Part shown: one piece after another, positions 14,208-24,638 of the stretch | Layout: each line of letters opens with the position of its first letter | Numbering within the stretch: the stretch's first letter is position 1 | NCBI GenBank assembly: GCA_944332995.1 | Contig: CALVKR010000001.1 | Coordinates: forward strand, 124,001-188,000 | Direction of reading: 5' to 3' | From: an uncultured Clostridia bacterium | GTDB lineage: Bacteria > Bacillota > Clostridia > Christensenellales > CAG-917 | Length of the DNA: 64,000 nt | Made by a program: the position numbers and the translations under genes | Notes under the pieces: generated by a model | Told to the model about the DNA's origin: nothing | What the model saw: only the letters and a program-made list of their open reading frames with translations | Database searches by the model: none

Positions 14208-14579
14208 TTATTCGTTGGTAATTAAATATTCAGTGCAAATATTACCGTTTACGATGTGGTTTGCAACGATTTGTTTTGCCTTTTCGCTGTCCACGTGAAC
14301 GTAGGTAACTTTTTCCTGACCGGGAACGAAAACTTCGACAATGGGTTCAAGTTTGCACATTCCCAAACAACCCGAACGGGTCACTTTGACGTTTTTAAGC
14401 TGTCTTGTCGCGACTTCTTCAACTAAAGTGTTGAAAACGGGACGGGCGCCTGCGGAAATACCGCAAGTAGCCATACCGACAACAATTCTCGTTTCGTCGT
14501 TGCCGCTTGTGTTATCGCGCAATATAATCTCAGATTGCATCTTATCTCTGATTGCTTTGATATCGTCGATACTCTTCAT
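14208..14579 (-). CDS. hndB: Small thioredoxin-like [2Fe-2S] protein (HndB-like)
   Basis: A 123-residue protein with the thioredoxin-like [2Fe-2S] fold. The four candidate ligands lie in ATCGISAGA (about 43-51) and SGCLGMCKLEP (about 85-95). Its family is an accessory subunit of Hnd/Hyd hydrogenases that relays electrons near the flavin subunit. GGAGG stands six bases before the ATG. Its start overlaps the stop of the upstream HATPase gene by four bases, and hydB starts 13 bases downstream. The same fold also occurs at the N-terminus of HydB, so the complex may contain two such centres. Confidence 0.88.
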   Translation of the reverse strand: MKSIDDIKAIRDKMQSEIILRDNTSGNDETRIVVGMATCGISAGARPVFNTLVEEVATRQLKNVKVTRSGCLGMCKLEPIVEVFVPGQEKVTYVHVDSEKAKQIVANHIVNGNICTEYLITNE

Positions 14580-15115
14580 AATAATCCTCCGTGTGGTGTG
14601 TTTTCTCTAATATAATTTTTTATAAACAGCAGTACTTCGGGTTCGTCCATGGGAACGCCGTCAAGCTGCTCTTTAAGTTCTCTCGTGTCGAATACAAAAT
14701 CCGTTTCGTTAAAGACAAAATGCAAAACATAGTCAACCTCATCGCCGTTGGAGATGAGAATGGACATAGTTTCGCCGAGATCGCCGAGCGGCGGTCTGTC
14801 TATATGGTCGATGGCAAAGGTGGTGGTAACCGTAGTCCCCTCACCGAGCTTGGAGCGGATATCGAAAGTGCCGCCCGCCATCTCAGCTTCCATTTTCAAA
14901 AAAGGCAACCCCATACCCACTTTTCTCGTCGTGCGAGTTGTGGTGTAAGGATCGGTAACTCTGCTTAAAAACTCCTCGCTCATACCCTTTCCGTCGTCTT
15001 TAATGGAAATCGTCAAAACGTTATCCTTTGCAATGACGTCGATATAAACGATTTTGGCTTCGGCTTTGACCGAATTTTCGACAATATCGAGTATGTTAAG
15101 CGAAAGTTCTCTCAT
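14576..15115 (-). CDS. HATPase_c-domain ATP-binding regulator, copy 1
   Basis: A 179-residue stand-alone GHKL-type ATP-binding protein. The histidine-kinase-like ATPase fold shows the N box (ILDIVENSV, about 8-16), the G1 box DDGKGM, the G2 box GMGLPFLK and GEGTTV. There is no phosphorylatable His domain and no sensor domain. About 65 C-terminal residues extend beyond the ATPase core and resemble nothing I know. Stand-alone proteins of this type are often found in hydrogenase operons of Clostridia, and their partner is unknown. It is four-base overlapped with the 2Fe-2S gene, so translation is likely coupled. Confidence 0.85.
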   Translation of the reverse strand: MRELSLNILDIVENSVKAEAKIVYIDVIAKDNVLTISIKDDGKGMSEEFLSRVTDPYTTTRTTRKVGMGLPFLKMEAEMAGGTFDIRSKLGEGTTVTTTFAIDHIDRPPLGDLGETMSILISNGDEVDYVLHFVFNETDFVFDTRELKEQLDGVPMDEPEVLLFIKNYIRENTPHGGLL

Positions 15116-15337
15116 AATTCAACCTTTTTTTACATACAAATATATATTATCATAAAAAAACTCTTTTGAAAAGCCGTTTTTTTTATTTTTTTAATATATT
15201 TTTAATATTCAAACGGAATCCGTCCCCCTTTCGGTTTACAGTGCCGTTTTTCCTTTCCTTTAAAGCAAGTCCGCCCTATATTCGATTGCTTCCTTTAAGC
15301 GATATTCAGCCGCTTGGAAATTTGTATGCGATAAATT

Positions 15338-16030
15338 TCACCCTCTCGACTTAAGATAATCGATAAGGGCGAAAACAGACCTGTCGGGCAATTCTATCTC
15401 GCTTGAAACACCGATATTTTCCACCGTATGGGCGTCGGAATCGATAATGACGGTATAATCCTTGCTCCACTTTTCAACTTCTTCGTTTTTTGCCTTAGTG
15501 GAAAGTTCCACCACCTTAAATTCGTCGGTAATTGAACCTAATATGGCGAGCATACTGTTGCCTTCTCTATCTATATGGGCGGGAATGGCTATGCCGCCGA
15601 ATTCGTCCGCCAAAATTTTGACCTTGTCGGGCGTGATTTTAGCGCCGTGAAGCAACAGCCTATCCTCTACCCTGACTATATTGTCGTCCTCGTCCATGAC
15701 GAGTTGATCGCCGTAAATCGAGCTGTCGTTTTTTAAGTCGTGAAAGGAAATTTGACTGAAAAACGCTTTGAGATTTTGCAAATTTTTGAACAGACACAAA
15801 AGGTGAATATCTTCTTCCGTCTGAATTTCCACGGCAGGCACCACGCAAACGCCGTAAGCTGCGCCGCACTTTAAGGCGACTTCCACGTTGTCTATCGCAT
15901 TATGGTCGGAAACGGCGATAAAATCCAGCCCCGAAAGTTTGGCAAAAGCAACTATTGTCGCCGGAGTCATATCGTTTTCGGCGCATGGCGAAAGACAGCT
16001 GTGAACGTGCAAGTCGTATTTATATTTCAT
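15338..16030 (-). CDS. PHP-domain metal-dependent phosphoesterase
   Basis: A 230-residue PHP-superfamily protein. The first metal motif DLHVHSCLSPC is at the N-terminus. SDHNAID (about 43), PAVEI, PAHIDR (about 148) and DSDAH (about 196) supply the remaining metal-binding His/Asp/Glu residues, so the site looks complete. Known members hydrolyse phosphoesters such as histidinol phosphate, nucleotide phosphates or DNA 3' ends. The substrate here is unknown. I place the start at the ATG whose A is shared with the TGA stop of the upstream DRTGG gene, three bases inside the longest frame, because GGAGG is four bases before it. Its position inside the hydrogenase cassette suggests a signalling or nucleotide-turnover role. 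Confidence 0.87.
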   Translation of the reverse strand: MKYKYDLHVHSCLSPCAENDMTPATIVAFAKLSGLDFIAVSDHNAIDNVEVALKCGAAYGVCVVPAVEIQTEEDIHLLCLFKNLQNLKAFFSQISFHDLKNDSSIYGDQLVMDEDDNIVRVEDRLLLHGAKITPDKVKILADEFGGIAIPAHIDREGNSMLAILGSITDEFKVVELSTKAKNEEVEKWSKDYTVIIDSDAHTVENIGVSSEIELPDRSVFALIDYLKSRG

Positions 16031-16359
16031 CAAGCCTCCGCTGCAATATACCTTTTTACAGCCTCGAATATATCGTATTTCGTTTCAATCAGATTGACAT
16101 CCTGAGCCTTTGCCTTGTCGACGAGCTCGGGAGTGGATTTTGCGCCCTCGCATACGACGATAACTCCCACCTCGGCAAGCGTAGCCACGGCGCAGACGTT
16201 TATATTTGTCATAACCGTAAACCATGCGCAGCCTGAAGGAGCTTTGCCCATTACGAAACTTAAAAAATCTCCGCAGTAGCCTTTGGTCACTTCAAAATCT
16301 TTATCGACAACGTTGACTTTCGTTGCCTTTAGTGCGTCAATAAGTTTACTTAGTTTCAT
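16030..16359 (-). CDS. DRTGG-like domain protein, copy 1
   Basis: A 109-residue single-domain protein with the alternating beta-alpha pattern of DRTGG domains, which are found beside CBS domains, phosphotransacetylases and in hydrogenase operons. The central GAPSGCAWFTVMTNINVCAV-like region and the closing LIETKYDIFEAV are typical. The literal DRTGG motif is not present. It probably binds a nucleotide or small ligand, with no catalytic residues visible. It is paralogous to the gene at 18044-18388. GAGGTG precedes the ATG, and its start overlaps the end of the hydrogenase-like gene by 14 bases. Confidence 0.72.
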   Translation of the reverse strand: MKLSKLIDALKATKVNVVDKDFEVTKGYCGDFLSFVMGKAPSGCAWFTVMTNINVCAVATLAEVGVIVVCEGAKSTPELVDKAKAQDVNLIETKYDIFEAVKRYIAAEA

Positions 16360-17608
16360 TTTTCACCTCGGTGTCAAGACGAGGGCACTTGTCGGATACT
16401 ATGCCCGAAACGACGTCCTCCGCAAAAGCACGGCAGCTCGGCGCACCGCACATACCGCAGTCGTATTGCGGAAGGGTGTTTAAAAGATTTTCCACTTCCA
16501 TAAGTTTTTGCATGGCGCTAAGCCTGTTCTCGTCAAGTTTGTCAAAGTTTTTAAACTGCGGTTCGTCCTCCCAAACGTAGTAAGACAGAGGCTTTCCCTC
16601 GTCCGCCAATATGTTTGACGACGTGGCAGGCAGTTTCATGCGAAGCTGTCTTATCCTCGCTTTTGCGACAAAAGGATTTTCGACGTTGAGCACTCCTCCC
16701 ACGCAGCCGCCGGCGCAAGCGTCGAGCTCGATAAAATCGACTTCGGTCAAGGTATTGTCCTCGAGCCCGTCGAGAATATGCTTTACGTTTTCTATACCGT
16801 CAGCCGCAAGGTACTTGCTTCTGAAAGTAGCCGTGGCTTCACCGCCGGACGTAGCCCAATGAAGCCCTAAATTTCCCATTTTGGAAAGCGGTTTGAGATC
16901 CGACGGCTCCAGCTTATTCATGGCGGGAACGAGTTTCATGTAAACCTCGCCCGTGGATAAAACTCTGTCGACATAAGGCTTATTCACGCCGACGCCGAGT
17001 TTTAAAGCGTAAACCTTGGCAGGACACGGTGAGATAAAATACACGCCTATGTCCTCAGGCGGAATACCTCTTTTTATCGCCTTGTCTCTTGCAAGTTTTG
17101 CCGATATATCGACAGGTGCCAAGATATTTAAAAGGTTGTCTTTTAAATTGTGATAGCGGGATAAAATAAGCTCTAAAACCGCAGGACAAGCCGTGCTTAT
17201 GACGGGATATTTGACCTTGTTTTGGTCGAATATGATTTTCGTAACGGCAGAAGCGTATTCCGCTCCTCTGCCGACTTCAAAAACCTCGTCGAAACCGAGA
17301 GCCAAAAGTCCGTTTAAAACGTAATTTACGTCGGTAAGGTTGTTAAACTGTCCGTAAAGCGACGGGGCAGGCAACGCTATTTTATATTTAAAATCGTTTA
17401 TTGTGTCAAACGAATCGTAGGAAGCGAGTTTTGCGTGCGACGGACAGAGGCGGACGCATTCGCCGCACCCTATACATCTATCGTAAAAGACGCTCGCTTT
17501 TCCGTTTCTCACCCTTATAGCTTCCGTGGGACAGCGCTTCATGCAGGTCACGCAACCTTTGCATTTATCGGCGTCCAGGAATACGGTGTGAAAATAATTG
17601 TTTTCCAT
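16346..17608 (-). CDS. Hydrogenase-like iron-sulfur protein with degenerate H-cluster (putative sensor)
   Basis: A 420-residue [FeFe]-hydrogenase homologue that is probably regulatory. Two ferredoxin clusters (Cys16, 19, 22, 26 and Cys45, 48, 51, 55) precede an H-cluster domain. Its three motifs read STACPAV, SPCPAKVYALK and DACAGGCVGG. The cluster cysteines are kept, but the flanking residues differ from HydA: the Ser/Cys of TSCSP, and the Lys-Glu pair after the second motif, where no Glu follows. The C-terminus ends in a further Cys4 module (CGMCGAPSCRAF) like that of RnfB and corrinoid/CODH-associated proteins. It is flanked by two DRTGG and two ATPase genes, which suggests H2 or redox sensing rather than bulk turnover. 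AGAGGG supports the start. Confidence 0.85.
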   Translation of the reverse strand: MENNYFHTVFLDADKCKGCVTCMKRCPTEAIRVRNGKASVFYDRCIGCGECVRLCPSHAKLASYDSFDTINDFKYKIALPAPSLYGQFNNLTDVNYVLNGLLALGFDEVFEVGRGAEYASAVTKIIFDQNKVKYPVISTACPAVLELILSRYHNLKDNLLNILAPVDISAKLARDKAIKRGIPPEDIGVYFISPCPAKVYALKLGVGVNKPYVDRVLSTGEVYMKLVPAMNKLEPSDLKPLSKMGNLGLHWATSGGEATATFRSKYLAADGIENVKHILDGLEDNTLTEVDFIELDACAGGCVGGVLNVENPFVAKARIRQLRMKLPATSSNILADEGKPLSYYVWEDEPQFKNFDKLDENRLSAMQKLMEVENLLNTLPQYDCGMCGAPSCRAFAEDVVSGIVSDKCPRLDTEVKNETK

Positions 17609-17618
17609 AAATTCCCTC

Positions 17619-18041
17619 TTAGTGAAAATCGACTCTTATGTAAACGGTAGTCCCCACGCCCACTTCGCTTTCAATCTCAAGCACGTCGGCGTATTTTTTC
17701 ATATTAGGCAATCCCATACCCGCTCCGAATCCCAAAGCTCTTATTTCGTCTTCCGCCGTGGAATAACCGGGCGTCATGGCAAGTTCTATATTTTCGATAC
17801 CTTTGCCGTGGTCGATTAGTTTTATTTCAATGTGGTCGAAAAATATGTCTATGACGGCGACTCCCCCACCGCCGTGAATAACCATATTTATCTCCCCTTC
17901 ATACATGGCGATCGCTACTCTGCGGATATCCTCTGACGCTATGCCCATTTTTTTGAGAGTGCTCTTAACTGCGTCGGAAGCCATACCGGCCTGTGAGAAG
18001 TTGTTTCCCGCCACTTCATACTCAAAGTGCAAGTTTTCCAT
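17619..18041 (-). CDS. HATPase_c-domain regulator, copy 2 (RsbW/SpoIIAB-like)
   Basis: A 140-residue ATP-binding protein of the anti-sigma-factor kinase type. The N box has EGEINMVIHG (about 49-58), G1 is DHGKGI, and G2 is GFGAGMGLPNMKKYAD, followed by GVGTTVY. In RsbW/SpoIIAB the fold phosphorylates an anti-anti-sigma protein, but no sigma factor or STAS protein is encoded here. I start at the ATG seven bases after GAGG rather than the TTG six bases earlier, which is too close to it. The start lies two bases after the DRTGG stop. It shares only the ATPase core with the longer copy at 14576. Confidence 0.85.
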   Translation of the reverse strand: MENLHFEYEVAGNNFSQAGMASDAVKSTLKKMGIASEDIRRVAIAMYEGEINMVIHGGGGVAVIDIFFDHIEIKLIDHGKGIENIELAMTPGYSTAEDEIRALGFGAGMGLPNMKKYADVLEIESEVGVGTTVYIRVDFH

Positions 18042-18043
18042 TG

Positions 18044-18388
18044 TCAAACCTCTGCTTTAAGCCCCGCCTGATAGAGTATTCCGCAAGCGGCAAACATACG
18101 GTGAGGTGTGGCAATCAAAGTAATACCCCTGTCTCTTGCGAGTTCGACAAGAGTGGTATCCGGTTTTTTGCCTCTGACAAGCACTATGCACAGCATATCC
18201 ATCATTTCCGCCGTCCTTACGACTTGCGGATTGCAAAGTCCGGTTATAAGCACCGCCTGGTCTTTGACGAACGCCAAAACGTCGCTCATCATATCCGAAG
18301 CGCAAGCGGAATGCAAATCTTTTTCCATATTGTCGCCCTCGCTGAGCACGACTCCGTCAAGCAATTGAACAATTTCACTGACTTTCAT
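18044..18388 (-). CDS. DRTGG-like domain protein, copy 2
   Basis: A 114-residue single-domain protein paralogous to the one at 16030-16359, with the shared pattern MKVSEIVQLLDG ... ALVITGL-like strand ... LARDRGITLIATPHRMF. Probably a ligand-binding regulator with no visible catalytic residues. The longest frame begins four codons earlier at 18400, but that ATG lies inside the GGAGG, which stands five bases before the ATG at 18388, so the later start is preferred. It is the first gene of the closely packed nine-gene block ending with hydA. Confidence 0.7.
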   Translation of the reverse strand: MKVSEIVQLLDGVVLSEGDNMEKDLHSACASDMMSDVLAFVKDQAVLITGLCNPQVVRTAEMMDMLCIVLVRGKKPDTTLVELARDRGITLIATPHRMFAACGILYQAGLKAEV

Positions 18389-18487: not shown

Positions 18488-21400
18488 TTATACCGAGCCC
18501 CAATTGACTTTATTCCCTGCGCTGAAGCAGTTTGCCGTCCAGCCCGACGGCTTGGAGCCTGCCTCGCAGTTTATAGTGACCGTTCTGCCGTAAAAAGCGT
18601 AGTCGCCCAACGATTGCACGCCAAGAGGAAGGGTTATATCGCTTGTTGCGACGCTCGACGATAAGTCGCATCTGAATGCGTATGCTCCTATCGTCACCAC
18701 GTTTTCAAACGGCGGCAACACGGTGAGAGAATTGCACCCCGAAAAGGCAAACGAGCCTATAGTTTCAAGAGATGACGGGAACGTGACGGAAGTTAAATTG
18801 GTAAACGACACGAATTGGTTGGACAAAATGCCCTTTGTTCCGTCCATAAAGTCTATTTCGGTAACCGTGGATTTATCCACGCCCTCCTTAATGCCGTAAG
18901 CCCACTCGCCCACATAGAGGATATTGCCGTCCTCGTCAAAGGCATAGTCTGAAGGCAAGAGCGTGAGCACGCCATCCGATTTTCTGATGATTGCACCGCC
19001 GCTCGATGTAAATACGGAAGATGAGATATCAATATCGTATGCCGAAACGTTTACGGCGTTTTCAAAAACTGCGGAATTTATATTCTTGACGGAGGACGCC
19101 AATTCCAAAACTCCGCTTTTGCCGAGAGGACAGAAAACTACGGTCGTTTTGTCCTTGTTATAGAGCACTCCGTTATAGGAAGAAAACACGCTGTTTTCAA
19201 AATATCTGAATTTGACAAGTTCGCCGTCCTCACCCGTATAGAGTTCGACGAACATATCGCCCACCAAAATATAAGTGCCTTTGTCGCTCACCGCGTATTG
19301 TCCGCCAATATTTTCGTATCTCTTTATATCGGAAGAAACGTAAGTGTAGTTTAAAGCATATCTGAATAAATCTCCGTTTTGCGATTGATAATATCCCGCT
19401 TCGGCAACGTTGAAATCGCTAAAAGCCGTAGCGCCTTTGAATACGTCGCAGGCGAGCGAATAATCGAACACGGTGAAGTCGTATCCCACGTTTACCGTTT
19501 CAAGGGACGTCACATACGAAAAAGCGCCTCTCTTGAAAGTCGTGGCTTTCGTTACGGTGACCTCTTTAAGGTCTGACGGCAAATAATATGAGATAAACTC
19601 TTTCATATCGTAAAACGCCTGTCTAACCTCAACTGCTCCGTCGAAAGGCGACGAGCCGAACACAACGCCTATCAACGCCTTTTCGTTTGTGGCACTTGCG
19701 CTCACTCCGACAAAAGGCAACGTAACGGAAGTTAAATTGCCGCAACCGTAAAATGCGCCCTCCGCAATAGAGGTTACGCTCTCGGGAATGACCAAACTCG
19801 TTCCCTTATAATTTCTGAAAGATTCGGCGCTTATTCCCTTTAACAAGCCGTCGTTTGCGAGATTGATTTGAGCCGTGATATTTTCAAAAGCATATCCGCC
19901 TATTTTTGAAAGTCGAGCACCTGCCGTTATGGACGTCAGATTAACTCTGTCGGCAAACGCTCCGTCAGGAATATCCGTAAGGGTACTCGGCAAAATCAAA
20001 TCGCCGGATATATCTTTAGGCACGAAAACCAACACCGTCATAGACGAGTTATACAAAACTCCGCCCTGAGAGGAATAAGTCTGCCCCGAGCTTTCCGCAC
20101 CGAGAGAATCGACAAGGGTTATCGAAGTTAAGCCGAGATTTTCAAACGCCGACTTGTCGAAAGAGGTTATCGTATTGGGCAGAATTATATCACCCGACAA
20201 CGAATTGGGAACAGCCAAAATAGAAGTTTTATTTTTGTTTAATATTATTCCGCTCGATATCTCAAATTTAGCGTTTTCGCCGTCAAAGGCAAAGCCGGTA
20301 ACCGTTCCTTTGTCTAACACGGAAGAATTTATATCCGAAAGATTAGACGGCAAAGTGAGGATTCCGCTAAAGCCGTCCTCTAAATAAACCGCCTGCGTCA
20401 AATCTTTGGTCACAATAAGTCCCTGCGAGTTGAAATCGGTAAAATATCCGTTTTGAGCGGGGACGTCGAGCGTCGTGACTTTCGAGCCTGTAAGCGATTG
20501 TGCGCTAAAATATCTCGTGCTTGGCGAAAGAGTGAGATTTTCTACTCTCGAGCCGTAAAGAGCGTATTCGAGAATACCCTTGACAGAATCGCCTAAAACG
20601 AGCGAGCTGTCCGTCTTTGTCATCAAAACCGCCACTACGAATTCAAAATCTTTGTCGTATAAAATCCCGTCGGAGAGAATATAGTTAGAGCCGAGGTCGA
20701 CAGCCACAAGGCTGTCACAGCCGGCAAACGCACCCTCTATTCCGACAAGTTTTTTATCCACATCGGCGCCCTCCCCGATTTCTTCGTATCTTAAAGCCAC
20801 CGATTGATTAAACTTTATCGATTGCAATCCGCTACAGCCGTAGAAAGCAAATTGAGGCAAAACGGAATTTTGTATCGTAACGGAAACAAGCGTGGACGGC
20901 ACATAATATCTTTTGTTGTTCAAGCCGTCAAAGGTATTGCATATTATGCCGCCCTCGTATTCCGACTTGCCGAAGACGGAAGCAAAACTCTTTGAATTGT
21001 TTGTACCGACGAAAGGCAAAGTCAACGAAGTGATATCCGTCATCTTTTCGAGCGCTCCCTCGGCGATATATACCGCTTTTTCTATACTGAGACCGGTAAG
21101 CGACACTCCGTAAAACGCACCCGAATTGATATTGCAATCAGCGGTGACGGTTACCGACTTGAGCGACGAGGGAATATAACTGTCGACATAGTTTAAATTG
21201 TCGTAATACTGCCTTACCGATACGCCGCCGTCATACGGTACCGAGCCAAAGACGTAGCCAAACAATCCCTCTGCCGACGAAGCGGTTTTACTTTTGCCGA
21301 CAAAAGGAAGCGTGAGGCTTTCTATATCCGAGCGTCCGTAAAGGGCGCCGTATGAAATTTCCGTTACGCTGTCGGGAATTACGACAGAGCCGCCGCCGAG

Positions 21401-22462
21401 GAATTGAACGTATAGTTTTTTGATGTCCTTATCGTATAGTCCGCCGCCGTAGACGGTAAACTCGGATTGCGAGTCGTCGCCGTATATGCCTATCGAATTA
21501 AGAGATTTCAAGCCGTAAAACGCTTTATCGTTTATCGATTTCAACGATGACGGAAGGTCTATCGAATTTATCGTTTCGTTATAGGCAAAAATGGAATCGT
21601 AAAGACCCACCGTGCCGTCGGGAACGGTAACGTGCGACGCCGAGCTTTCTAGCGAGATGGCCCAATTGTTTAACAAGTTTATTCCGTTGACCGTGTTATA
21701 CGAAAGATTGGTTCCGTCAAGCGCTCCCGTGCCTATGTTAGTTACGTTATTACCCAAATTGAGTTCGGTAAGAGACGTGCACCCCTCGAAAGCGGACGCA
21801 CCTATGCTCACTATATTGTCCCCCATAGTTACCGACTTGATTTTGGTATTTCCTTTAAACGCTCCGTCGGCAATGGCGGTAACCGGCATTTCAACGCTCG
21901 TCGCTACGAGCCTGACCGTATCGGGTATAACTATCGTATCGGAAGTGGACGAGCCTATCCCCGTTAGAGTGTAACTTTTCTGTCCTGCGTTGTAGGAATA
22001 TTTCAATCCCGAAGTATAGCCGTCGTCCACCACTATCTCGGACGGGCTTTTTTCGCTGTATTTAAAAGTGTACGTGGTTTTGTCTACAAAATTGATATCC
22101 TTTGCGACGGTCAATATGTTGTTTGATACTGTGCCCTTTAAATATTCCGCCTCGCCTTTATAAAAAGTAAAGTCGTTCTTGCCGTCATAGTAATATGTTC
22201 CGCTTCCCTCGAACGGAAAATCGTATCCGTCGGCAACCGTTATGGTATAATTGGTGCCGCTTATCTCTATTATGACGTCCTCGTTCATCTGAGCGGATAC
22301 TGTGAGATAATACTTTCCGTTTTTGAGTTCGTAACTTTTCGGCTCTATCAAAAACACGCAAAGAAGCGTGATCATAAGAGCAAGAGCCAACACTCCTGCG
22401 ACAATGCCGACGACTATTCCTATCTTTTTCTTTTTCGATAAAGGTTCCGTTCTCTTTGTCAT
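18488..22462 (-). CDS. BspA-type leucine-rich-repeat surface protein, N-terminally anchored
   Basis: A 1324-residue extracellular protein. A short basic cytoplasmic head (KRTEPLSKKKK) and one transmembrane helix (about 14-38) anchor it. A small beta-rich domain (about 45-140) precedes many Treponema-pallidum-type leucine-rich repeats of about 23 residues (I-GDYAFYGC-SL-S-TIP-like), interrupted by longer insertions such as LYDKDIKKLYVQF. No sortase motif or catalytic domain is visible. The family mediates binding to host proteins or other microbes. It lies between hydC and the rest of the hydrogenase genes but has its own ribosome site (AGGAAG), a -10 box at 22508-22513 and its own terminator, so it is probably a separate transcription unit inserted there. 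Confidence 0.9.
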   Translation of the reverse strand: MTKRTEPLSKKKKIGIVVGIVAGVLALALMITLLCVFLIEPKSYELKNGKYYLTVSAQMNEDVIIEISGTNYTITVADGYDFPFEGSGTYYYDGKNDFTFYKGEAEYLKGTVSNNILTVAKDINFVDKTTYTFKYSEKSPSEIVVDDGYTSGLKYSYNAGQKSYTLTGIGSSTSDTIVIPDTVRLVATSVEMPVTAIADGAFKGNTKIKSVTMGDNIVSIGASAFEGCTSLTELNLGNNVTNIGTGALDGTNLSYNTVNGINLLNNWAISLESSASHVTVPDGTVGLYDSIFAYNETINSIDLPSSLKSINDKAFYGLKSLNSIGIYGDDSQSEFTVYGGGLYDKDIKKLYVQFLGGGSVVIPDSVTEISYGALYGRSDIESLTLPFVGKSKTASSAEGLFGYVFGSVPYDGGVSVRQYYDNLNYVDSYIPSSLKSVTVTADCNINSGAFYGVSLTGLSIEKAVYIAEGALEKMTDITSLTLPFVGTNNSKSFASVFGKSEYEGGIICNTFDGLNNKRYYVPSTLVSVTIQNSVLPQFAFYGCSGLQSIKFNQSVALRYEEIGEGADVDKKLVGIEGAFAGCDSLVAVDLGSNYILSDGILYDKDFEFVVAVLMTKTDSSLVLGDSVKGILEYALYGSRVENLTLSPSTRYFSAQSLTGSKVTTLDVPAQNGYFTDFNSQGLIVTKDLTQAVYLEDGFSGILTLPSNLSDINSSVLDKGTVTGFAFDGENAKFEISSGIILNKNKTSILAVPNSLSGDIILPNTITSFDKSAFENLGLTSITLVDSLGAESSGQTYSSQGGVLYNSSMTVLVFVPKDISGDLILPSTLTDIPDGAFADRVNLTSITAGARLSKIGGYAFENITAQINLANDGLLKGISAESFRNYKGTSLVIPESVTSIAEGAFYGCGNLTSVTLPFVGVSASATNEKALIGVVFGSSPFDGAVEVRQAFYDMKEFISYYLPSDLKEVTVTKATTFKRGAFSYVTSLETVNVGYDFTVFDYSLACDVFKGATAFSDFNVAEAGYYQSQNGDLFRYALNYTYVSSDIKRYENIGGQYAVSDKGTYILVGDMFVELYTGEDGELVKFRYFENSVFSSYNGVLYNKDKTTVVFCPLGKSGVLELASSVKNINSAVFENAVNVSAYDIDISSSVFTSSGGAIIRKSDGVLTLLPSDYAFDEDGNILYVGEWAYGIKEGVDKSTVTEIDFMDGTKGILSNQFVSFTNLTSVTFPSSLETIGSFAFSGCNSLTVLPPFENVVTIGAYAFRCDLSSSVATSDITLPLGVQSLGDYAFYGRTVTINCEAGSKPSGWTANCFSAGNKVNWGSV

Positions 22463-23531: not shown

Positions 23532-24263
23532 TTAGCTGTTTTTAAAGGTCAAAGGCATACGTCTTTTGTGCGCCGTCACGGCAATCGTCCTCTCTATTTT
23601 GGCGACGTCCTCTTTTGACCCCTCTTTTGTCAGCAAATATTTATCGATGGCGGCGTAGGTTATACCCATTTCCGACTCATCCGTCTGCCCTTCGTAAAGT
23701 CCTGCCGACGGAGCTTTCGTTATTATCTGCTCGGGACAGTCAAGCTCTTTCAGCATCTGATATACTTCCGTAACGGTGAGGTCGGATATCGGGTTGAAAT
23801 CGTATGCGCCGTCCCCCCACTTGGTAAAGTATCCCATTGCGGATTCGCTTCTGTTTCCCGTTCCCGCCACAAGCATATTGTTTGCCGCCGCATAGGCGTA
23901 AAGCGTTATCATTCTGAGACGCGGATTTATATTCATAAGCGCTTTTTTCCTGCCCTCGTCGGAAGCGACGTCAAGCACGGGTTTTAGCGCATCGCACATC
24001 GCCTGCTTGCCTTTAGTTACGTCGATAATTATGTTTTTTATCCCAAACTTATCCGCTACTGCCTTTGCGTCGGACATATCCTGTCCGTAGTTGCGGCTAC
24101 TCTCGCAAGGCATTATTATGCCCACGGTGTTGTCGCATGCCATTTTACAAAGTATCGAAACGAGCGAACAATCTTTTCCTCCGCTGTTTCCGTAAACTAT
24201 TCCGTCGGCGTGCGCATCTTTTACAACCGATTTGATCCACTCTACTCTCTCTTTGACGTCCAT
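23532..24263 (-). CDS. nadE: NH3-dependent NAD+ synthetase
   Basis: Makes NAD+ from deamido-NAD, ATP and ammonia in the cytoplasm. The 243 residues hold the P-loop-like ATP pyrophosphatase motif, here YGNSGGKDCSL (about 25-35) with Lys-Asp-Cys instead of the more usual Ile/Val-Asp-Ser. They also hold AGTGNRSESAMGYFTKWGDG (about 128-147) and the closing PSAGLYEGQTDE motif of the NadE family. There is no glutaminase domain, so it depends on free ammonia, which the neighbouring GdhA could release or consume. GGAGG precedes the ATG by five bases. It lies downstream of gdhA, separated by a terminator and the 9-bp array. Confidence 0.93.
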   Translation of the reverse strand: MDVKERVEWIKSVVKDAHADGIVYGNSGGKDCSLVSILCKMACDNTVGIIMPCESSRNYGQDMSDAKAVADKFGIKNIIIDVTKGKQAMCDALKPVLDVASDEGRKKALMNINPRLRMITLYAYAAANNMLVAGTGNRSESAMGYFTKWGDGAYDFNPISDLTVTEVYQMLKELDCPEQIITKAPSAGLYEGQTDESEMGITYAAIDKYLLTKEGSKEDVAKIERTIAVTAHKRRMPLTFKNS

Positions 24264-24395
24264 AAATGCCTCCGTACAAAATTAAGATGCAAGCGAATTG
24301 TCTATTAGCTTTCGCTCGTAAATATTTTAAAATAATTTTTTTTATTTATCAATAAAAATAAAAGAAAAATAAAAATTGAACAAAGTTAATTTAAA

Positions 24396-24620
24396 CAGTC
24401 TTTACAGTCTTTACTGTCTTTACAGTCTTTACCGTCTTTACAGTCTTTACCGTCTTTACAGTCTTTACTGTCTTTACAGTCTTTACTGTCTTTACGGTCT
24501 TTACTGTCTTTACAGTCTTTACGGTCTTTACTGTCTTTACCGTATTTACTGTATTTACCGTATTTACCGTATTTACTGTATTTACCGTATTTACCGTATT
24601 TACTGTCTTTACAGCTTTTA
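24396..24620. repeat. 25 tandem copies of a 9-bp unit with one hypervariable base
   Basis: Every unit fits CNGT[C/A]TTTA except the last (CAGCTTTTA). The second base takes all four values across copies, while the other positions are fixed apart from a block of seven units (copies 17-23) with A in place of C. Read on the minus strand the array encodes (Val-Lys-Thr) or (Val-Asn-Thr), and the variable base is the third position of the Thr codon. No ribosome site precedes the minus-strand frame, so I annotate it as a repeat. Confidence 0.95.
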
Positions 24621-24638
24621 TCACATTTCGGAAATTTA

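Follow-up and report, generated by a model that had tools for sequence, protein, structure and literature searches.

The window analyzed here, a 64,000-nucleotide stretch of contig CALVKR010000001.1 from an uncultured gut bacterium of the Clostridia (GenBank assembly GCA_944332995.1), carries on its minus strand the gene for a putative sensor-type [FeFe]-hydrogenase, HydS, close to the genes of a bifurcating hydrogenase, HydABC. We propose that a HydS-centered sensor signals through DRTGG adaptors and kinase-like proteins to a receiver that sets the activity of HydABC or of the Rnf complex, a reading to which we give a probability of about one half. The first part of the system would be a unit of five proteins, comprising HydS, two putative adaptors with the DRTGG fold (D1 and D2), a SpoIIAB-like kinase (K1), and a PHP-family phosphoesterase. 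The second would be another GHKL ATPase, K2, the candidate receiver, normally accompanied by a HydD-like protein that we call e and encoded inside the HydABC operon or directly before the Rnf genes. Because the two parts are inherited jointly even when the five-gene cassette and the hydrogenase operon lie far apart, a system of sensor and receiver is probable.

A conserved five-gene unit next to the hydrogenase operon

We surveyed the surroundings of the top group D hydrogenase matches in Clostridia genomes, 80 loci that together with the window made 81, and set the gene families by family-restricted assignment; iterated profile searches merge HydS with HydA and D1 with D2. In 65 of the 81 loci, the window included, the genes D1-K1-HydS-D2-PHP were complete, on one strand and in one order, and the other loci were cut by contig ends or lacked one or more of the genes. 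Median spacings between successive genes were -1, 17, 1, and -4 bp, and the five genes of the window are likewise tightly spaced, with gaps of 2 and 10 bp followed by overlaps of 14 and 1 bp. This arrangement is far beyond chance. The unit occurs in three contexts: by hydABC, by rnf, or alone.

The preliminary description of this DNA had recognized six closely packed genes, K2 among them, as a near-symmetrical set. All six open reading frames are present on the minus strand and belong to the families named there (D2 by its predicted fold), and the close packing holds for D1-K1-HydS-D2-PHP, but K2 starts 222 bp 3′ of PHP and shares 4 bp with the hydrogenase-operon gene e. The actual layout is therefore a five-gene sensor operon plus a K2 that belongs to the hydrogenase operon. 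In the relatives, hydC-K2-e-hydB(-hydA) adjoins the cassette in most loci, with a median K2-e spacing of -4 bp, and K2 lies a median of 613 bp from PHP, usually with hydC between them. Given these distances and the overlap with the hydrogenase operon, we rejected a symmetric six-gene complex.

Published gene lists offer a further comparison. Across two Caldicellulosiruptor species, Caldanaerobacter, C. phytofermentans, C. thermocellum, and T. pseudethanolicus, five locus numbers separate the M2e hydrogenase gene from the closest hydrogenase gene on the list (PMC3561251, Table 6), an offset that would leave room for D2, PHP, hydC, and K2. For C. bescii, the Hyd system is listed as a unit of five genes from Athe_1295 onward, having a Rex site of its own (PMC6391272), which again fits the layout C-K2-e-B-A.

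K2 and e are inherited with the sensor

We scored gene presence in 291 Clostridia genomes with thresholds set at a clear score gap (E<1e-70 for HydS, profile cut-offs for K2 and e); incompleteness of metagenome-assembled genomes can mimic gene absence in such counts. HydS was present in 138 genomes, D2 in 143, K2 in 148, e in 162, and hydB in 233. D2 accompanied HydS in 137 of its 138 genomes and K2 did so in 134, so the genes that the preliminary description had grouped do occur together elsewhere, and e was present in 132 of the 135 genomes that bear both hydB and HydS. Among the 98 genomes that have hydB without HydS, K2 was absent from 84 and e from 68, and on these profiles we rejected the simpler idea that K2 just accompanies the hydrogenase.

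The operons gave the same picture. When we read 15 hydABC loci in genomes lacking HydS (L156-L170), the 13 complete ones ran C-B-A, K2 and e both being absent, and the two at contig ends were compatible with that layout. Conversely, five genomes whose cassette lies elsewhere still had a C-K2-e-B-A hydrogenase operon (L171-L175). K2 is thus bound to the sensor by inheritance and not always by position, and e goes with K2, following the sensor less strictly than K2 does. Within the 21 mixed families, K2 and HydS were concordant in 111 of 125 genomes, compared with a mean of 84.5 and a maximum of 99 in 5000 label shuffles; for e and HydS, 98 were observed against a shuffled maximum of 88. On a tree of HydB from 93 loci, K2 switches between present and absent ~7 times; where independent pairs differed in K2, HydS went with it in 6.5 of 7 pairs and in no pair went against it (median p 0.016, with few events).

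These profiles bear on the improbable alternative that K1, K2, and the DRTGG proteins are ATP-driven chaperones that help to assemble or mature the FeS-rich subunits of HydABC and Rnf, and that HydS is a scaffold or an electron donor of low activity. GHKL ATPases also include chaperones, K2 and e sit between structural genes, and both of the complexes with which the cassette is linked are rich in FeS clusters. However, besides the 84 of 98 hydB genomes that manage without HydS and K2, the HydB of one sensor-bearing genome (G152) is 86-87% identical to that of its cassette-less genus-mates. The hydrogenase was therefore kept through gains or losses of the sensor, K2, and e, and it needs no cassette for its assembly. 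A PHP phosphoesterase together with a SpoIIAB-like kinase also suits signaling better than assembly.

The exceptions suggest which protein might connect the two parts. Among genomes with K2 and no HydS, six (G065, G136, G201, G226, G242, and G243) have a strong D2 and two (G017 and G034) have a weak D2-like gene; in G034 the operon reads hydC-D2-K2-e-B-A (L146). In three genomes of one genus, D2 alone remains at the old cassette site (L138-L140). The fit of K2 with D2 is thus even closer than its fit with HydS, and sensor and receiver may be linked through D2-K2.

Association with Rnf

At two loci (L107 and L114) the cassette and K2 lie directly 5′ of rnfCDGEAB, and at two more (L141 and L142) D1-K1-D2-PHP-K2 lies 5′ of rnf with HydS elsewhere in the same genomes, so that K2 precedes rnfC in all four. 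The common factor of the proposed targets is NADH/ferredoxin electron transfer and not H2 production as such.

Two further patterns were seen around rnf. In the genomes of L141 and L142, a lone group D HydS sits by a second Rnf/Nqr-like operon (L127 and L131), away from the remaining cassette. At L136 and L149, hydC-K2-e-hydB occurs without hydA and is followed by rnfC or rnfCDGEAB-type genes, a pattern repeated at three loci of family f24 (L113, L133, and L135) and at further cassette loci; it suggests an NADH module paired with Rnf in place of a hydrogenase.

The coordinates of the genes in the window are collected in Table 1. There, hydC lies upstream, cut off from K2-e-hydB-hydA by a gene for a 1324-amino-acid leucine-rich-repeat-like protein (18488-22462), and a terminator-like hairpin (18478-18454) lies 5′ of D1.

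Table 1. Genes and intervals of the sensor unit and the hydrogenase operon in the window.
Feature	Position	Strand	Evidence or detail
D1, stand-alone DRTGG-domain protein	18388-18044	minus	114 aa from ATG 18388; Pfam PF07085 3.6e-8
K1, SpoIIAB/RsbW-like GHKL ATPase, putative Ser/Thr kinase	18041-17619	minus	TIGR01925 1.1e-17
HydS, assigned to group D (M2e) [FeFe]-hydrogenases	17608-16346	minus	PF02906 5e-26 + 2x Fer4 + PF04060
D2, second protein with predicted DRTGG fold	16359-16030	minus	Pfam DRTGG weak, 2.2e-4; predicted fold DRTGG
PHP-family phosphoesterase	16030-15338	minus	PF02811 4e-7
222-bp AT-rich gap between sensor operon and K2-e-hydB-hydA operon	15337-15116	minus	TAATAT -10-like box near 15140
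K2, histidine kinase-type GHKL ATPase, putative receiver	15115-14576	minus	HATPase 1.2e-15
e, 123-aa thioredoxin-like [2Fe-2S]-fold protein, HydD-like	14579-14208	minus	Alignment and operon position
hydB, NADH/flavin subunit of bifurcating hydrogenase, proposed target	14194-12410	minus	NuoF-like + 2Fe-2S + Fer4
hydA, catalytic [FeFe]-hydrogenase group A6, proposed target	12400-10658	minus	NF040763 8.4e-274, above cut-off
hydC, NuoE-like subunit	23403-22891	minus	PF01257 3.9e-47

HydS resembles the group D hydrogenases

Pfam and an alignment of 81 homologs show HydS to be a 420-amino-acid protein with two [4Fe-4S] sites, an H-domain, and a C-terminal four-cysteine FeS motif. Its FeS cysteines and its H-cluster cysteines (C141, C195, C298, and C302) are invariant in all 81 homologs, except for the fourth C-terminal cysteine, which is kept in 80. 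Around the active site the residues have changed: A140 takes the position of the proton-shuttle cysteine C299 of CpI (alanine in 67 of 81 homologs), S193 that of M353 (serine or threonine in 80 of 81), and D296 that of M497. With the shuttle cysteine lost, 84 bits against the group A model TIGR02512 (cut-off 406), and no match to a group A or group B model that comes near its cut-off, HydS is distinct from an ordinary catalytic hydrogenase, as the preliminary description had supposed. Pfam finds no PAS domain in it, which sets it apart from group C (M2f). Scores in searches with HydS were bimodal (E <1e-70 versus ~1e-36), and the signature residues agree. Because this domain set and these replacements are the published marks of group D, we assign HydS on its sequence to the group D (M2e) 'putative sensory' [FeFe]-hydrogenases, as a TamHydS-like member.

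TamHydS, from Thermoanaerobacter mathranii, has low turnover and a raised affinity for H2, and its biological role is stated to be unknown (PMC8163306, PMC13104023). It shares with HydS the two [4Fe-4S] sites, the H-domain, the C-terminal four-cysteine cluster, the lack of a PAS domain, the loss of C299, the change of M353 to serine, and a neighborhood of bifurcating hydrogenase and kinase-like genes; it differs at the M497 position, where HydS has aspartate. To call HydS a 'sensor hydrogenase' is thus to extend to it, by analogy, the published biochemistry of TamHydS together with the residues checked here. Group C (M2f) systems (HydS of T. maritima and of R. albus, and HfsB) are similar in that a poorly catalytic sensor lies by regulatory genes and is proposed to sense H2, but they have a PAS domain and possibly a PP2C-type phosphatase as partner.

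The genome of the window also encodes a separate group C-like system (contig C10, L266:4214-8489) with a 558-amino-acid PAS-type HydS and a 401-amino-acid PP2C-like protein, and in the same locus a 473-amino-acid group B-like hydrogenase beside an adhE-like gene.

The other sensor-unit proteins and how they might signal

D1 scores above the Pfam cut-off for DRTGG, and its residues D32, S35, T49, and N53 are invariant in an alignment of 21 species. For D2, an AlphaFold model (predicted local distance difference test score, pLDDT, 97) found as its best Foldseek matches the CBS-DRTGG pyrophosphatase 3l2b and the DRTGG domain 2ioj (TMq 0.8), and D1 and D2 are homologous by hhalign (99.5%); judged by this model, D2 has the DRTGG-domain fold despite its weak Pfam match. 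The metal site of PHP is complete, with H8, H10, D42, H43, E68, H76, H152, D199, and H201 invariant in 20 species, and its nearest solved relatives include EndoQ and a 5′-3′ exoribonuclease.

Since PHP relatives cleave nucleotides or nucleic acids, and the fold of D2 matches a DRTGG domain from the regulatory region of a pyrophosphatase, we considered a second-messenger loop in which D1 and D2 bind a nucleotide, PHP breaks it down, HydS and K1 do no more than gate the binding, and the output is whatever binds the nucleotide. We regard this as very improbable. In 3l2b the nucleotide is bound by the CBS domains, but D1 and D2 have none, and no nucleotide synthase recurs in the cassette across the 81 loci.

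K1 has an invariant N-box (E50/N54/H58), DxGxG motif, and glycine-rich boxes in 21 species, with E50 and N54 common to the genome's own SpoIIAB, and so keeps the residues of a Bergerat-fold kinase. It scores 64 bits against the anti-sigma F model, short of the cut-off of 135. The resemblance to SpoIIAB/SpoIIAA/SigF and RsbW partner switching is in this ATPase and its kinase residues; the difference is that the cassette has neither a STAS antagonist nor a sigma factor (none recurs in the 81 loci) and DRTGG proteins occupy the place of the STAS protein. The only STAS gene of the genome lies in a spoIIAA-AB-sigF operon with its own SpoIIAB.

K2 has a PF02518 domain in 19 of 19 members, with conserved nucleotide-binding boxes and, beyond the histidine kinase-type ATPase domain, a conserved C-terminal stretch of ~75 amino acids (model pLDDT 89). 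No HisKA phosphoacceptor domain was found in any of the 19 members, so K2 does not qualify as a two-component histidine kinase. Foldseek matched the ATP-binding part of K2 to kinases of the PDK/BCKDK type, in which a GHKL fold is dedicated to one metabolic enzyme complex. We use these as a working analogy for K2 and do not claim it as a member, as the likeness spans only ~80 residues.

An unlikely but substantial alternative is that the system acts on transcription, by a partner switch or a two-component relay: under the control of HydS, K1 would be an anti-sigma kinase, or K2 would form half of a histidine kinase, or both, and hyd and rnf would be regulated through a sigma factor, STAS protein, or response regulator encoded elsewhere. 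K1 is closest to SpoIIAB, K2 resembles histidine kinase catalytic domains, an AraC-type regulator flanks TamHydS (PMC8163306), and group C sensors accompany PP2C and PAS signaling, also in the window's genome. Yet no transcription or sigma factor was conserved near the cassette in the 81 loci, a result with which an unlinked regulator is still compatible. Because no STAS or sigma partner recurs, we rate a classical anti-sigma switch lower, and K2 has no phosphoacceptor. In addition, Rex-like operators precede hydC in 19 of 60 cassette loci (0.7 expected) and D1 in 3 of 71, so that NADH-linked control of transcription has another agent; a search of the window itself for a Rex operator found nothing above chance. 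We favor control at the level of the enzyme, given that the putative receiver is encoded between structural genes, that nearby regulators do not recur, and that hydC carries the Rex-like operators.

Protein e is related to the N-terminal domain of HydB/HoxF and keeps three of the four cluster cysteines (C39, C71, and C75, all invariant in the alignment). In A. woodii, whose operon order is hydCEDBA (PMC7242416), HydD is an extra 15-kDa hydrogenase subunit with no predicted cofactor (PMC6288185). The A. woodii operon has the same five-gene layout, C-x-x-B-A, in which HydE holds the position of K2, and HydD resembles e in size, place, and incomplete cysteine site. By size, place, and operon order, e is therefore the probable counterpart of HydD. 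What differs is that these papers (PMC7242416, PMC6288185) assign no function to HydD or HydE and report no co-inheritance with HydS.

A proposed model for control of electron flow

What we observed directly is which genes are present and in what order, which residues are kept or lost, that the parts are inherited jointly in trans, and that the targets occur in two contexts. H2 as the signal, kinase activity, the identity of the phosphorylated protein, and action on the enzyme itself and not on its transcription are inferred. The H-cluster of HydS would bind H2 and turn over poorly, and H2 or redox state would alter the shape of HydS. That change could in turn alter the ATP-dependent phosphorylation or binding of a DRTGG partner by K1, which family membership suggests is a kinase of D1 or D2. 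D2 might then relay the state to K2 at the enzyme, where K2 would tune the rate or direction of electron movement by HydABC or Rnf among NADH, ferredoxin, and H2. PHP, again going by its family, would strip the phosphate or phosphorylated signal and so reset the system. More tentatively, and with less than even odds, the group D hydrogenase, the DRTGG adaptors, and the two GHKL ATPases may together act post-translationally on the bifurcating hydrogenase and Rnf as a real-time H2/ferredoxin governor of clostridial fermentative electron flow, with the A. woodii-type HydD/HydE as its receiver.

Several observations weigh against the proposed sensor and receiver. HydG is the source of the CO and CN in the H-cluster, and a search with TIGR03955 found no match to it in the window's genome or its family (36 genomes searched, G000 of the window included), so that full loading of the H-cluster of HydS is here only presumed; four other families of the same order have HydG at full score. 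Sixteen cassettes stand alone, with no hydABC-operon genes in the surveyed stretch. Fourteen genomes have K2 but no HydS, so that K2 is of some use even where the sensor is missing; e occurs in 30 hydB genomes that lack HydS. The C-terminal cluster of TamHydS is reported to be unresponsive to H2 (PMC13104023). Comparable reports of missing hydG exist for acetogens (PMC9431212).

As a separate observation, the window's genome encodes several [FeFe]-hydrogenases with intact H-cluster ligands although the HydG search of the genome and its family (f1) was negative.

Novelty, significance, and flanking features

The preliminary description had seen in the locus what looked like an uncharacterised signaling module. 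Group D hydrogenases, the 'putative sensory' label they bear, and their closeness to kinase-like genes and bifurcating hydrogenases are already published (PMC3561251, PMC3608648, PMC8163306). What is new is the anatomy, namely the five-gene unit, the co-inheritance of K2(-e) in trans, and the Rnf context; the TamHydS literature does not define these, and we found no description of them in the open-access papers that we searched.

Group D hydrogenases, present in 138 of the 291 sampled genomes, are now tied to a fixed set of partners and to a receiver in HydABC and Rnf operons. If the proposal is true, the system would probably tune hydrogen and redox metabolism, and it would be a candidate point at which fermentation, ethanol yield, and acetogenesis could come under the control of H2 pressure. 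It also gives HydD and HydE, two bifurcating-hydrogenase genes without an explained role, a candidate job, and related species with C-K2-e-B-A and C-B-A operons provide a natural experiment.

Farther out in the window, an NAD synthase-like gene (23532-24263) lies 5′ of hydC and is kept in six loci of the window's family. Beyond it is a long intergenic run of a short repeat (24391-24624), which reads TVKTVNTVK... in translation.

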